A DNA stretch of 6,594 bases, from assembly GCA_025927935.1 (NCBI GenBank), contig JAICKM010000393.1, positions 1 to 6,594 of the forward strand. The letters are read 5' to 3'. Both the position numbers and the translations under genes were made by a program. Of this stretch, positions 415 through 6,594 are shown piece after piece. How positions within the stretch are numbered: position 1 is the stretch's first letter; the number at the start of each line of letters is the position of its first letter. This DNA comes from Chloroflexia bacterium. Lineage in GTDB: Bacteria; Chloroflexota; Chloroflexia; QHBQ01; JADMIH01. Under the pieces are notes generated by a model, which was not told the origin of the DNA, ran no database searches, and worked only from the letters and a program-made list of their open reading frames with translations.

Positions 415-520
415 CTGGAACCTCCCCGATCTGCCTGTCCGGCGACCGCGCGTTTACCGGTATCGGCCTGTACGGGCCGTATTACGGCTCTGTTCGCTCT
501 ATAGCTATTATCGCGCCGGA

Positions 521-549
521 ACATTAAGCGGGGATTAGGGGAATGTAAA
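521..549 (-). promoter_or_regulatory. Possible promoter of the TPR gene
   Basis: On the minus strand TTTACA (544-549, five of six to the -35 consensus) is followed after 17 bp by TAATGT (521-526), a poor -10. Transcription would begin near 514, leaving a leader of about 100 bases before the ATG at 414. Only the -35 and the spacing are good. GATAAT- and TATAGA-like hexamers in the same AT-richer patch (500-512) could serve instead. Confidence 0.25.
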
Positions 550-595
550 CAATTGGTATGAGTCTATTGGGATCGTTTGCGGGAGATTTGGGGCG

Positions 596-2423: not shown

Positions 2424-2465
2424 CGCGCCGCCCGCCGTTACACCGGCACCACGGCGGTGGGCGCG
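2424..2465. terminator. Imperfect GC hairpin between convergent genes (possible shared terminator)
   Basis: Bases 2424-2437 and 2452-2465 are reverse complements at 12 of 14 positions around a 14-base loop. The structure begins just after the zinc-ribbon stop and overlaps the last codons of the kinase gene. The location between convergent stops suits a bidirectional terminator, but no T-run follows on either strand and the surrounding sequence is very GC-rich, so support is modest. Confidence 0.3.
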
Positions 2466-4252
2466 GGGGCCACCGGCAGCGTGAAGGAGAAGGTGGCACC
2501 CTGATCCGGGCGGCTGGTTACGCCGATTTCGCCGCCGTGGGCCTGCACCAGGTGCTTGGCGATAGCCAGGCCCAGGCCCGTGCCGCCCGCGCTTTTGGCC
2601 CCGGCGCTGCGCGCCTTGTCCACTTTGTAGAACCGCTCGAACAGCCGCGGCTGTTCCTCCTGTGGGATACCGATACCGGTATCGCGCACGTAGAGCCGCA
2701 CGCCCGCCGGGTCCGGCTCGGCCCAGAGGGTGATTGCCCCGCCGGGTGGCGTGAACTTGATCGCGTTGTGGACCAGGTTGACCAGCACTTGTTCGATCCG
2801 CGTGGCATCCACATCGGCGGGCGGCAGATCCGGCCCGGCGCGCACGGTCAGCGTGAGTCCGGCCCGCTCAGCCTGCGCGCGCAGCCGCCCCGCGGCCCGC
2901 TCCAACAGCGTGTCCACCGGGAACGGCCGGCGGTCGAGTTGCACCTGGCCCGACTCGATGCGCGACAGCTCCAGCAGTTCGCGCACCAGTTGGGTCAGCC
3001 CATCCAGTTCCACGTCGATGCGCCGCAGGAAGCCGGCTGCCGCCTGCGGGTCGTCGTGGATGGCGGTATGCAGCGTTTCGACCAGCAGTTTCACGGAGGC
3101 CAGCGGCGTGCGTAGCTCGTGGCCGATATTCGCCACGAAGTCGCGGCGCACGCGCTCCAGGCGGCGCAATTCGGTGACATCTTGCAGTACGGCCAGCACG
3201 GTCGGCGCCCCACCGGCCGGGCCGGGGATGCCGGTGACGACGCACGCGACCTGGTAGGGGCCGAGGGCCAGGTCCAGGTATTGGCGCTCGCCCGGCGCGG
3301 CCAAGGCGGCGCGCCCGGCCTGGTACATCTCGTGGCTCTGCGTCAGCGCCACCAGCGAGCGGCCCACGGCCCGCTCCGGGCTGGTCTGCAGCAGGCGGCA
3401 GGCGGTCGGGTTGATGCCGTCGATGGCGCCGTGAGCGTCGGTCAGCACGATGCCGTCGTGCATATGGGCCAGCACGGCGGCCATCTGGTTGCGCTCGGTC
3501 GTGCGCCGGCGGATCGTATCGCCCAGCCGGTTCGCCATGGCGTTGAACGCGCCGCTCAGCGCCCCGATCTCGCCGCCCGTCTGGCTGTTGGCGCGCGCCG
3601 TCAGATCGCCCTGGCCGAAGCGGGCGGCCACCCCGCGCAGGGCCGACAGCGGCCCGGCAATGGAGCGCGCCAGCACGGTACCGAGCAGGGCGGCGGGCAG
3701 GCTGACCAGCAGCACCGCCAGCCCCAGGTTACGCCAGAGCGTGTCACGCGCCTGCTCCACCGATGTCAACGGGTAGGCCACGCGGGCGATGCCGGCCACT
3801 CTGCCGGGCGCTGCGGAGTCAGGTATGGTCACGGCCACGTAGAGCAACTGGCGGTGGACCGTGGCGCTCAGGCGGCTGTCGCTGCCGGGCGCGCCGGGAT
3901 GGGCAAGGGCCTGCACCACTTCCGGGCGCTGCCGGTGGTTTTCCATCAGCGCCGGGTTTTCTTCCGAGTCGCCCACGACCGTGCCGTCGGGGCGAATCAG
4001 CGTCACGCGGGTGCCGAAGATGCCGGCCAGGTTGTGGGCCAGGGTGTTTGTGATGGAGATCGGCGTGGCCGGGGTGAGCAGCGGGGCGGCGTTGAACGCC
4101 ACGGCGTGGACCTGGTCGCTCAGCCGCGCCCGCAGGGCATCTTCATCGCGCGTGGCGAACTCGTCGCCGAGCAGCACGGCCAGGATGCCCACGGTAATCA
4201 GCACCAGGGCGATATAGCTCAAGGCGATGCGGACCCAGGTGCGCGATAACAT
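2438..4252 (-). CDS. PhoR/PnpS-like membrane sensor histidine kinase
   Basis: The protein has 604 residues. In order: membrane helix (~8-29); extracytoplasmic sensor (~30-173) carrying the PnpS/PhoR-type stretch TRVTLIRPDGTVVGDSEENP then MENHRQRPEV (81-112); second helix (~174-195); HAMP (~196-250); PAS (~255-365); HisKA with phospho-accepting His378 in FVANIGHELRTPLA; HATPase_c with the N box (N492/N496 in NLVHNAIKF), G1 DTGIGI (524-529), F box LFERFYKVDKARS (537-549) and G2 GGTGLGL (556-562). All catalytic motifs are intact, so it should autophosphorylate and pass the phosphate to the regulator encoded just upstream. This order of domains is the usual one for PhoR/PnpS phosphate sensors, with WalK and ResE the close alternatives. 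The ATG at 4250-4252 lies 18 bases after the regulator stop. AGGAAG (4267-4272), overlapping that stop, is a rather distant ribosome site and suggests coupling. Confidence 0.93.
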   Translation of the reverse strand: MLSRTWVRIALSYIALVLITVGILAVLLGDEFATRDEDALRARLSDQVHAVAFNAAPLLTPATPISITNTLAHNLAGIFGTRVTLIRPDGTVVGDSEENPALMENHRQRPEVVQALAHPGAPGSDSRLSATVHRQLLYVAVTIPDSAAPGRVAGIARVAYPLTSVEQARDTLWRNLGLAVLLVSLPAALLGTVLARSIAGPLSALRGVAARFGQGDLTARANSQTGGEIGALSGAFNAMANRLGDTIRRRTTERNQMAAVLAHMHDGIVLTDAHGAIDGINPTACRLLQTSPERAVGRSLVALTQSHEMYQAGRAALAAPGERQYLDLALGPYQVACVVTGIPGPAGGAPTVLAVLQDVTELRRLERVRRDFVANIGHELRTPLASVKLLVETLHTAIHDDPQAAAGFLRRIDVELDGLTQLVRELLELSRIESGQVQLDRRPFPVDTLLERAAGRLRAQAERAGLTLTVRAGPDLPPADVDATRIEQVLVNLVHNAIKFTPPGGAITLWAEPDPAGVRLYVRDTGIGIPQEEQPRLFERFYKVDKARSAGAKSAGGTGLGLAIAKHLVQAHGGEIGVTSRPDQGATFSFTLPVAPAPTAVVPV

Positions 4253-4270: not shown

Positions 4271-5074
<804 letters not shown>

Positions 5075-5198: not shown

Positions 5199-5246
5199 CA
5201 CGGGGGCTTCCCCCTGCCCCGATTCACGCCATTATCGTCACCGTTC

Positions 5247-5252
5247 AGTATA
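5247..5252 (-). promoter_or_regulatory. -10 element (TATACT) of the putative PHO-box promoter
   Basis: TATACT on the minus strand lies 9 bp downstream of the last TTAACA-like hexamer of the repeat array at 5262-5299. There is no independent -35; in PhoB/PhoP-activated promoters the bound regulator takes that role at this distance. Transcription would start near 5240, with a leader of about 165 bases to the regulator ATG. Confidence 0.45.
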
Positions 5253-5261
5253 GCGAATGCG

Positions 5262-5299
5262 TGTTAACAACGATTTAATGCTATGTTAGCGCCCGTTAA
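5262..5299 (-). promoter_or_regulatory. Putative PHO box: four TTAACA-like hexamers in 10/11-bp phase
   Basis: Reading the minus strand toward the regulator gene, the hexamers are TTAACG (5299-5294), CTAACA (5289-5284), TTAAAT (5278-5273) and TTAACA (5267-5262), starting 10, 11 and 11 bp apart. Together they match TTAACA at 20 of 24 positions. The Bacillus PhoP box is TTAACA-like hexamers with about 5-bp gaps. The cyanobacterial PHO box is tandem TTAA-core octamers in 11-bp phase. The E. coli Pho box also has 11-bp units. The array ends 9 bp above a TATACT -10. The regulator encoded downstream is of the family that binds such arrays, so autoregulation is the natural reading. This is inferred from spacing and sequence only. 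Confidence 0.5.
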
Positions 5300-5337: not shown

Positions 5338-5413
5338 TGTCACTCTGAGCGCAGCGAAGAGTCTCGTCTCGTGTCCGCAGGTGAGGAGATTCTTCGCTGC
5401 ACTCGGAATGACA
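5338..5413. repeat. Interspersed palindromic repeat (TGTCA..CTGAG..GCGAAGA..TCTC type)
   Basis: Arms 5338-5365 and 5386-5413 are reverse complements at 24 of 28 positions, separated by 20 bases. Outer ends TGTCA/TGACA and the motif GCAGCGAAGA..TCTC match, from memory, an imperfect palindrome found in many copies in Chloroflexota, cyanobacterial and Bacteroidota genomes ('TGTCATTCTGAGCGAAGCGAAGAATCTC'). It carries no gene and probably belongs to the REP/MITE-like class, moved by a transposase encoded elsewhere. The four mismatches suggest an old copy. It lies in the spacer between the divergent operons. Confidence 0.8.
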
Positions 5414-5434: not shown

Positions 5435-5518
5435 ATGCCGTGGATGTACCAGGACAAACGGTACTTTCTGGCTAATTCGCCGGCCGTATCTTGTGCCGGG
5501 ACATTTGCTTTGCTATAA
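5435..5518 (+). CDS. Possible 27-residue small protein with a strong ribosome site
   Basis: An ATG at 5435 follows GGGGAGG (5424-5430) by four bases and opens a 27-codon frame (begins MPWMYQDKRYFLAN, ends AGTFALL) stopping at TAA 5516-5518, inside the -10 hexamer of the next promoter. The Shine-Dalgarno is as good as that of the real genes nearby. The peptide has no recognised domain and no clear promoter; TACAGT at 5324-5329 is weak. It could be a genuine small gene, the stump of a decayed gene next to the repeat, or chance. Confidence 0.2.
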   Translation: MPWMYQDKRYFLANSPAVSCAGTFALL

Positions 5519-5519
5519 T
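5491..5519 (+). promoter_or_regulatory. Strong promoter of the membrane-protein/lipoprotein operon
   Basis: TTGTGC (5491-5496), exactly 17 bp, then a perfect TATAAT (5514-5519) with the extended TGn motif (5511-5513). Transcription should begin near 5526, giving a leader of about 95 bases to the ATG at 5621. This is the best promoter match in the window. A short inverted repeat TATAA/TTATA (5514-5518, 5525-5529) spans the initiation region. Confidence 0.6.
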
Positions 5520-5528
5520 AGAGGTTAT

Positions 5529-5552
5529 AAACTTACCAAGGTGGTAAAGTTT
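5529..5552. promoter_or_regulatory. Operator-like inverted repeat just after the predicted start site
   Basis: AAACTTACCA (5529-5538) and TGGTAAAGTTT (5542-5552) are inverted repeats around AGG, perfect except for one extra base in the right arm. The inner 15 bp (TTACCA-AGG-TGGTAA) are perfect. It lies at about +4 to +27 relative to the predicted transcript start, where a bound repressor would block RNA polymerase, or where the RNA could fold at its 5' end. Size and symmetry fit a dimeric helix-turn-helix repressor. No such regulator is encoded in the window. Confidence 0.45.
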
Positions 5553-5624
5553 GCGAGAGCTTTCCTGGTTGGTGTTGGGGAAGCACAGCGCAGCTTGCCT
5601 ACCCAGAAGGGGAGGGACCTATGA
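5541..5624 (+). CDS. Possible 27-residue leader peptide overlapping the membrane-protein start
   Basis: A GTG at 5541 opens a 27-codon frame (begins VVKFARAFLVGVGEA, ends QKGRDL) whose TGA at 5622-5624 overlaps the next gene's ATG as ATGA, the classic layout for coupled translation. The GTG lies about 15 bases from the predicted transcript start and has no clear Shine-Dalgarno, which counts against it. The peptide is basic and has no recognised domain. The same bases hold the Shine-Dalgarno of the next gene (5609-5616), so ribosomes on this frame could affect its access. Confidence 0.25.
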   Translation: MVKFARAFLVGVGEAQRSLPTQKGRDL

Positions 5625-6085
5625 CACTTGCCCAACAGAGCCAGATTGCCGCATCGCTGCTCTGGCTCGCATTGATCCTGGGGCCACCCCTGGCCCTGGC
5701 GCTGGGGGCCGGCATGGTCTATATGGACAGCGCCACCCGCGGCTTGAATACGGTGCCCGTGCGGGCCGACAACCGGGGCATCTTGCTGTTGCTCCTCGTT
5801 GCCTTCGCCGTCTGGGTGCTGCTGCTCAAGTTTCTCTACCTGCCCATTATCGGCTTCGACGCCCAATTTCTGAGCCTGAATGGCGTTACGAAGTACAATT
5901 ACGGCGACATCCGCAGCGTGCAGACGCTCTGGCACCTCACCCGCGATTGGGTTGCCACGCGGCCATTTGAGGCGGTGACGTTGCTTAGCTTCCTGCCGCT
6001 GATCTCGGCCTCGGTGCTGGTCTTTGCCCGCGCGCTGGGCCGCTCCGCCGCGCTCCCCGCCCCGCCGCAACGTTATTGGCGGTAA
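5621..6085 (+). CDS. Predicted three-helix membrane protein, function unknown
   Basis: The product has 154 residues and is not recognised. GGGGAGGG (5609-5616) lies four bases before the ATG and fixes the start. Hydrophobic segments are at about 11-34 (ASLLWLALILGPPLALALGA), 53-78 (ILLLLLVAFAVWVLLLKFLY) and 117-137 (EAVTLLSFLPLISASVLVFA). The loop ~35-52 is charged. The loop ~79-116 is polar and aromatic (FDAQFLSLNGVTKYNYGDIR, then HLTRDWVATRPF) and may carry its function. The short C-terminal tail is Ala/Pro-rich and basic (PAPPQRYWR), suggesting a cytoplasmic end. The first helix could also be read as an uncleaved signal anchor. The gene is first in an operon with the lipoprotein gene, which it overlaps by 10 bases if the TTG at 6076 is used. 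No ATPase, transporter or enzyme motif is visible, so its role can only be guessed as part of a cell-envelope pair with the lipoprotein. Confidence 0.8.
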   Translation: MTLAQQSQIAASLLWLALILGPPLALALGAGMVYMDSATRGLNTVPVRADNRGILLLLLVAFAVWVLLLKFLYLPIIGFDAQFLSLNGVTKYNYGDIRSVQTLWHLTRDWVATRPFEAVTLLSFLPLISASVLVFARALGRSAALPAPPQRYWR

Positions 6086-6594
6086 ACGCGCTCCGGCTGC
6101 CCCGCCCGCGATCCCGCTTGCCGGTGGTCGCGGGCGGTTTGCTTTGTCTGTTGCTGGTCGCCTGCACCGCCGACGGCAGCGACCCGGATCCGCGCCCCAA
6201 AGGGATCAACGTGCAATCGGGCACGGCGGCCACGCCCATCGTGGTCTATCGCAGCCTGGACGCCGCCCGCGCGGCTGTGCCCTTCGCGCTGCTGGCGCCC
6301 GCCTGGCTGCCCGCGGGCGTCTGGCCCGAACCCTATGTGCTGGTGGACGCCGCTGGCATTTCGCCGGGCCGCAACGGCACCCCCGGCGTCGAACTGGCCT
6401 ACTATGTGACTTCCGGCAACCAGGCGTTGAGCATCGAGGAGTACAGCCCGCAGCCGCCGCCGTCCTGGCAGGACCGGGCGTTGCCGGGCAGCGCCACCGG
6501 CCTGCCGGGCCAGGAGGAAGCGGTCAGCCTGCCGCAGGGGCCGGGTTGGCTGCTGCCCATCGCCCTCGACCCTGAGCAACCGCTCAGCCTCACC
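6076..6594 (+). CDS. Lipoprotein with a DUF4367-like domain, truncated at the right window edge
   Basis: This frame is open to the last base of the window (173 residues from the TTG at 6076, the only start possible ahead of the signal sequence because the frame opens at 5989). The N-terminus is an arginine-rich n-region (R7, R10, R12, R14), a hydrophobic core (~15-29) and the lipobox LVAC with lipid-attachment Cys30, so the protein should be anchored to the outer face of the membrane. A short Asp/Gly/Ser-rich linker (31-45) leads into a beta-type domain from ~50: VPFALLAPAWLPAGVWPEP, then VELAYYVTSGNQALSIEEYSP. The 'PF.LL.P.WLP.G' opening followed by 'V.L.Y....L.I.E' resembles DUF4367, often found in regulators and envelope proteins of Firmicutes and Chloroflexota. 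The TTG start has no clear ribosome site and overlaps the end of the preceding gene, which suggests translational coupling. A TTG at 6118 would remove the basic n-region and is less likely. Confidence 0.75.
   Translation, partial: MAVNALRLPRPRSRLPVVAGGLLCLLLVACTADGSDPDPRPKGINVQSGTAATPIVVYRSLDAARAAVPFALLAPAWLPAGVWPEPYVLVDAAGISPGRNGTPGVELAYYVTSGNQALSIEEYSPQPPPSWQDRALPGSATGLPGQEEAVSLPQGPGWLLPIALDPEQPLSLT

Follow-up and report, generated by a model that had tools for sequence, protein, structure and literature searches.

A promoter of the PHO-box type, made of TTAAC-like repeats, precedes a phoB-like response regulator gene in a 6,594-nucleotide stretch of DNA from a Chloroflexia bacterium (the window). 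The repeat array is a real feature of the sequence and its assignment as a PHO box is well supported by comparison within the phylum; it belongs to an already known kind, the TTAAC-type PHO boxes. It probably acts as a Pho-type activator promoter, bound by the operon's own regulator after phosphorylation by the kinase and raising expression of the regulator-kinase operon. The elements discussed here are listed below with the evidence for each.

5294 to 5299, minus strand: PHO-box unit 1, TTAACG (sequence; unit profile of pstS promoters)
5284 to 5289, minus strand: PHO-box unit 2, CTAACA, 10 bp from unit 1 (sequence)
5273 to 5278, minus strand: PHO-box unit 3, TTAAAT, 11 bp from unit 2 (sequence)
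5262 to 5267, minus strand: PHO-box unit 4, TTAACA, 11 bp from unit 3 (sequence)
5247 to 5252, minus strand: -10 element TATACT, 9 bp past unit 4, with no -35 (sequence; sigma-70 scan; distance rule of pstS arrays; full promoter score 36.5)
4271 to 5074, minus strand: OmpR-family response regulator, phoB-like, 267 aa, with receiver and winged-helix domains (Pfam; NCBIfam below cut-offs; relatives beside pst)
2438 to 4252, minus strand: sensor histidine kinase, phoR-like, 604 aa, with HAMP, PAS, HisKA and HATPase domains and a weak Cache-like match (Pfam; NCBIfam below cut-offs; relatives beside pst; tree)
507 to 559, minus strand: weaker second candidate, ATACCA, TTTACA, CTAATC and TTAATG (steps of 10, 11 and 11), then 9 bp and GATAAT, facing a TPR open frame at 1-414 (model score 21.4)

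The four TTAACA-like hexamers occupy 5299-5262 on the minus strand and match the consensus at 20 of 24 positions (5+5+4+6), in steps of 10, 11 and 11 bp. A sequence-only reading of this DNA had described such an array ending 9 bp above a TATACT that lacks a -35, and the description is exact in every count. Direct repeats of about 11 bp, as expected of a PHO box, are thus present, and their unit agrees with that of relatives in the phylum, which served for this comparison in place of the window's own genome. The -10 lies at a distance of 9 bp, where the array replaces a -35. A sigma-70 scan finds no -35/-10 pair at the array; both of its hits (5099-5070) overlap with the first start codon of the regulator gene. 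The leader from TATACT to the regulator gene would be about 165 nt long. Closer to the gene, and out of phase with the array, a perfect TATAAT with no -35 in the scan is found at 5198-5193 on the minus strand. Rfam at its gathering thresholds gives zero matches in the window.

The TTAACA consensus was picked by eye and post hoc, which makes scoring with an independent matrix important. When the 300 bp upstream are shuffled with dinucleotides preserved, 20/24 is never reached (0/3000; best 18). With a matrix derived from other sequences, the score of the array is reached by 0/20000 mononucleotide shuffles of the same 300-bp region and by 0/20000 of the local 81 bp. Block-shuffled windows likewise do not attain the full promoter score of 36.5 (0/300; best 17.4). 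The presence of a -10 of at least 5/6 at one fixed offset has a p value of about 0.006.

The same unit, period and -10 distance characterize the pstS promoters of Chloroflexota. Across 53 upstream regions of pstS (59 before duplicates were removed by sequence), repeats peak at spacings of 11 bp (241 vs 82.0 in shuffled sequence) and 22 bp (216 vs 77.8). Without use of the window, TTAAC emerges as the 5-mer that most often recurs at 11 bp, in 13/53 regions. This bears out the proposal that the box in this lineage is of the TTAAC type rather than the CTGTCAT type of E. coli. The search for matches upstream of pstS, put forward as a check on the array, was also successful in these relatives, as 16/53 regions carry the TTAACA consensus at 18/24 or better, with 0.1 expected. 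The profile of 79 units from pstS promoters reads T92 T87 A84 A94 C73, followed by A or C.

The position of the -10 follows a rule of its own. In the 20 top-scoring pstS arrays, words resembling a -10 (a match of at least 4/6, within 40 bp) peak at 9, 20 and 31 bp past the fourth unit, which indicates that some promoters have further units and that the -10 stands 9 bp past one of them. In total, 21/37 such words lie at 9 mod 11, and 17/20 arrays possess an in-phase -10 of this kind. The gap of exactly 9 bp between unit 4 and TATACT in the window obeys the same rule. Unit, period and -10 distance are therefore shared with the phylum's pstS promoters, and the identification of the array as a PHO-box-type promoter holds. 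Its direction is ambiguous when the array is taken by itself, as the TTAA core is self-complementary and can be read almost equally on both strands (matrix score 26.2 on the minus strand vs 26.6 on the plus strand). Only the minus strand has an in-phase -10, and the full promoter score including it is 36.5 vs 21.0; the minus-strand direction is thus favoured by the -10 alone. For pstS, 18 of the 20 best arrays score higher when read forward.

A promoter model consisting of four units and a -10 at 9 bp was trained on 20 pstS arrays, excluding the window, and gives the window array its score of 36.5. In 614,018 bases from relatives, the model finds 24 places scoring at least 30, including 16 at 36.5 or above; many of these are training sequences, so that only the score of the window is fully independent. 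A pst gene lies within 900 bp downstream of 21 of the 24 places, and the other three stand directly behind a phoR-like gene. Reversed sequence and 60-bp block shuffles of the relatives contain no place scoring 25 or more. There is partial overlap between the loci of the two sets, L001-L080 and L172-L210 (L011/L207, L012/L206, L017/L208, L009/L210), and their score lists are consequently not independent of each other. In at least 14/80 loci of relatives, no more than 100 bp separate the end of the kinase match from the box, which precedes pst genes. Arrays with an in-phase -10 behind phoR-like genes also occur at L077:7896 (Clostridium) and at L036:3135 and L039:2426 (records named Ca. Psychracetigena and Ca. 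Lithacetigena). The weaker candidate at 559-507 in the window has a score reached by 0/300 shuffled windows; 4 places in the reversed sequence of the relatives (614 kb) score like it.

A stricter search, for the exact pattern TTAACN6TTAACN6TTAAC, returns 27 matches in 21/400 genomes, and the reversal gives 2 matches in 2 genomes. These correspond to 25 distinct three-unit places, three overlapping matches in one genome (G164) being counted once. A clear phosphate gene is found downstream in 11/25, namely pstS as the first or second gene (7), PhoX (1) and Na/Pi cotransporters (3). At the remaining 14/25 places, no clear phosphate gene was found downstream; the genes there include HsdM, SpvB-like, MgtC, haem-NO-binding, an MFS transporter, an ABC permease and genes of no family. 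Two of these 14 are near phosphate genes anyway, one with a divergent pstC (L221) and one behind a phoR-like gene (L216). The cotransporters preceded by a three-unit array carry a PhoU domain, and these three together with the PhoX phosphatase are found in L222, L228, L229 and L212 (array at 1501). In three loci, a gene with a methylglyoxal-synthase-like fold (MGS-like) sits between the PHO array and pstS (L215:989-1462, L217:1623-2000, L218:1621-2064), where it perhaps provides a phosphate-releasing step in the Pho operon.

The regulator and kinase encoded behind the array fall below the cut-offs of every curated NCBIfam model compared. The regulator reaches 256/300 bits for MtrA, 252/340 for YycF (WalR) and 226/296 for PhoB, with RpaB also among its closest models and below cut-off. 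For the kinase, the values are 353/725 (WalK), 329/400 (PnpS) and 262/334 (PhoR), so that the best curated matches are MtrA and WalK, and neither the WalK/WalR nor the MtrA models are passed. The PhoR/PnpS signature attributed to the kinase from the sequence alone is present, but it stays under the curated cut-offs for both families. As the PhoB, PhoR and PnpS cut-offs are missed, the pair is named phoB-like/phoR-like only.

The surroundings of related pairs nevertheless point to phosphate. Of the kinase matches found in 400 Chloroflexota genomes, the best 30 were taken and the neighbourhoods of 26 were read, leaving out G040, G001 and G004 (short contigs) and G049. In 20/26, pst or phoU genes (pstS, pstC, pstA or phoU) lie within 6 kb of the kinase, usually in the order regulator-kinase-pstS-pstC-pstA-pstB-phoU; they are absent within that distance in 6/26 (G131, G240, G103, G094, G125, G058). 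The 6.6 kb of the window contain no pst or phoU gene by Pfam and phmmer; phmmer matches on antisense frames were set aside as artefacts. A phosphate signal had been assigned to the pair despite this lack of pst neighbours, and the gene order in relatives supports that assignment, making the pair likely to be of the phosphate type.

A tree of 32 kinases places that of the window inside the Chloroflexota group, with four Bacillota kinases set apart (support 98/95). The window kinase is on a long branch and the tree does not fix its position within the group; one locus in it, L008, was labelled ‘nopst’ by hand. Relatives of the kinase are mainly from Chloroflexota. Among the matches listed from genome contigs, identity is at most 45% over the full length and 53% in partial matches, and in whole-genome draws, some with three candidates scored per genome, at most 48% and 52%, respectively. 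Among the best 120 of 1773 protein-database matches, relatives show 99% and 88% identity, followed by a group at about 54-70%. Wherever the entry names an organism, it is a member of Chloroflexia or Chloroflexota, and many of the relatives are named PhoR by their JGI source, a name that is the source's own.

Presence of the array upstream of orthologous regulators had been named beforehand as support, and its absence from relatives as a refutation; at the distance of the relatives compared, the array is absent. None of 58 related regulator regions holds an array at 17/24 or better; all are from distant relatives, with a full-length kinase identity of at most 48%. Deduplication by sequence had reduced 92 regions to 60 including the window, and one region containing N was dropped from the 59 besides it. 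When 16 regions with starts estimated by tblastn were added and two that were too short dropped, giving 72 in all, the best region by matrix score, and the only one to approach the window, is L008 at 25.0, which scores only 16.2 towards the regulator. This array (L008:5119, minus strand) points away from the regulator; the strand that it faces carries two genes of the phosphoesterase family, the closer one at a distance of about 600 bp. In G058, the kinase pair has no pst gene nearby and a second regulator stands beside pstS, with a weak array (21.6) 20 bp before it (L200). Repeats in regulator-upstream regions are enriched at spacings of 12, 9, 8, 21 and 24 bp. Given the lack of the box before orthologous regulators and the second TATAAT closer to the gene, autoregulation of the pair would be specific to this lineage; it is the natural but still tentative reading of the arrangement.

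Several other explanations compete with a self-activated promoter. A true PHO box could be bound by a different PhoB-type regulator, leaving the window pair to answer another signal as a mere member of the Pho regulon. The curated models, which put the pair between the MtrA/WalK and PhoB/PhoR types with none above cut-off, are compatible with this, as is G058, with its pst-less pair and its separate regulator beside pstS. But most related kinases read (20/26) adjoin pst or phoU, and the window kinase is placed among pst-linked kinases in the tree, if not at an exact position, which makes this account unlikely. It is a little harder still to favour a true box that serves the divergent plus-strand genes from 5621 on, or that is a repressor site or a bystander, while the regulator is transcribed from the TATAAT at 5198-5193. 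The array scores equally on the plus strand, the array of L008 before a regulator faces the opposite strand and its phosphoesterase genes, and the perfect TATAAT is closer to the regulator gene. Nonetheless, no in-phase -10 is present on the plus strand, where the genes are without Pfam matches and are preceded by a TATAAT of their own (5514-5519), and the TATAAT at 5198-5193 also lacks a -35 in the scan.

The array might instead be the operator of some other OmpR-family regulator unrelated to phosphate. Direct repeats with a comparable period also serve the WalR, MtrA and RpaB families, and the best curated matches of the regulator are MtrA and YycF (WalR), below cut-off. This is improbable, as the array agrees in unit, period and -10 distance with those before the phylum's pstS, and at scores of 30 or more the model finds pst promoters almost alone. 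Least credible is that the array arose by chance in intergenic DNA rich in A+T. The four units were indeed selected by eye, with a first step of 10 and with a third unit, TTAAAT, that matches at 4/6 only, and the array is not conserved before orthologous regulators, yet no shuffle in any of the four sets reaches the array, and the scoring matrix derives from other sequences.

The preferred reading, a Pho-type promoter activated by its own regulator, suggests the following mechanism. Under low phosphate, the kinase (4252-2438) would phosphorylate the regulator (5074-4271), which would then bind the four 11-bp units at 5299-5262 head to tail. The unit nearest the -10 would stand at the -35 position and help RNA polymerase use TATACT, activating rather than repressing a transcript that may start near 5240. 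Expression of the regulator-kinase operon would rise as a result, constituting positive feedback. As the box is the same as that before the phosphate-uptake genes of relatives, the pair probably raises its own production when phosphate is low.

At a broader level, the balance tips slightly towards a single PHO-box ruler for Chloroflexota, with TTAAC every 11 bp and the -10 placed 9 bp beyond a unit, that is attached to different genes. Relatives have it in front of pst, often immediately after phoR, so that uptake would respond and the sensor pair would remain unboxed; in the lineage of the window the box precedes phoB, the pair would amplify itself and the TPR gene at 1-414 may belong to the regulon. 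A literature search, mostly outside subscription journals, found no description of a Chloroflexota PHO box. The box described here provides a usable phosphate-box definition for a large and mostly uncultured phylum, making Pho regulons there predictable from DNA. It also indicates what a two-component pair with no informative neighbours is likely to sense, and suggests that the wiring, i.e., the genes given a box, differs between lineages that have the same box.

TTAACA-type repeats with a unit and period like those of the window form the Bacillus subtilis PhoP box, which belongs to another phylum; the window-like array behind a phoR-like gene in the Clostridium locus L077 can be likened to it. 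The phoP promoter of B. subtilis is called autoregulated (PMC13403408). In E. coli, PhoB binds 11-nt direct-repeat units head to tail, with the unit CTGTCAT in contrast to the TTAAC type of the window (PMC4415409), and phoBR is stated to be autoregulated (PMC1906773).

A further likeness is with cyanobacteria. The SphR/PhoB PHO box of cyanobacteria, CTTAACCT, consists of 8-bp tandem repeats with 3-bp linkers and a period of 11, and shares with the window a TTAAC core, an 11-bp period and at least three units (PMC1906773). TTAA cores are required for binding by cyanobacterial PhoB (PMC11126600). The cyanobacterial boxes stand before pst and other phosphate genes; boxes before sphR are reported in only two of the species analysed, so that autoregulation ‘is not a general rule’ (PMC1906773), a pattern resembling that of the regulators compared here. 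The window differs from this system in phylum and in the sixth position of its units, which is A, G or T and not C. The rule for the -10 (9 bp beyond a unit, 9+11k beyond unit 4) derives from measurements on Chloroflexota loci only.

Other elements flank the array on its upstream side. The plus-strand open frames 5621-6085 and 6076 on have zero Pfam matches in the region 5621-6594. Right behind the TATAAT at 5514-5519, and before the plus-strand gene at 5621, lies an operator-like sequence that resembles a palindrome, AAACTTACCAAGGTGGTAAAGTTT (5529-5552). Just upstream of the array, a 36-nt inverted repeat at 5338-5413, TGTCA-TCTGAGCGCAGCGAAGA, has arms that are 81% complementary around a 4-nt loop and looks like a mobile or REP-like element.
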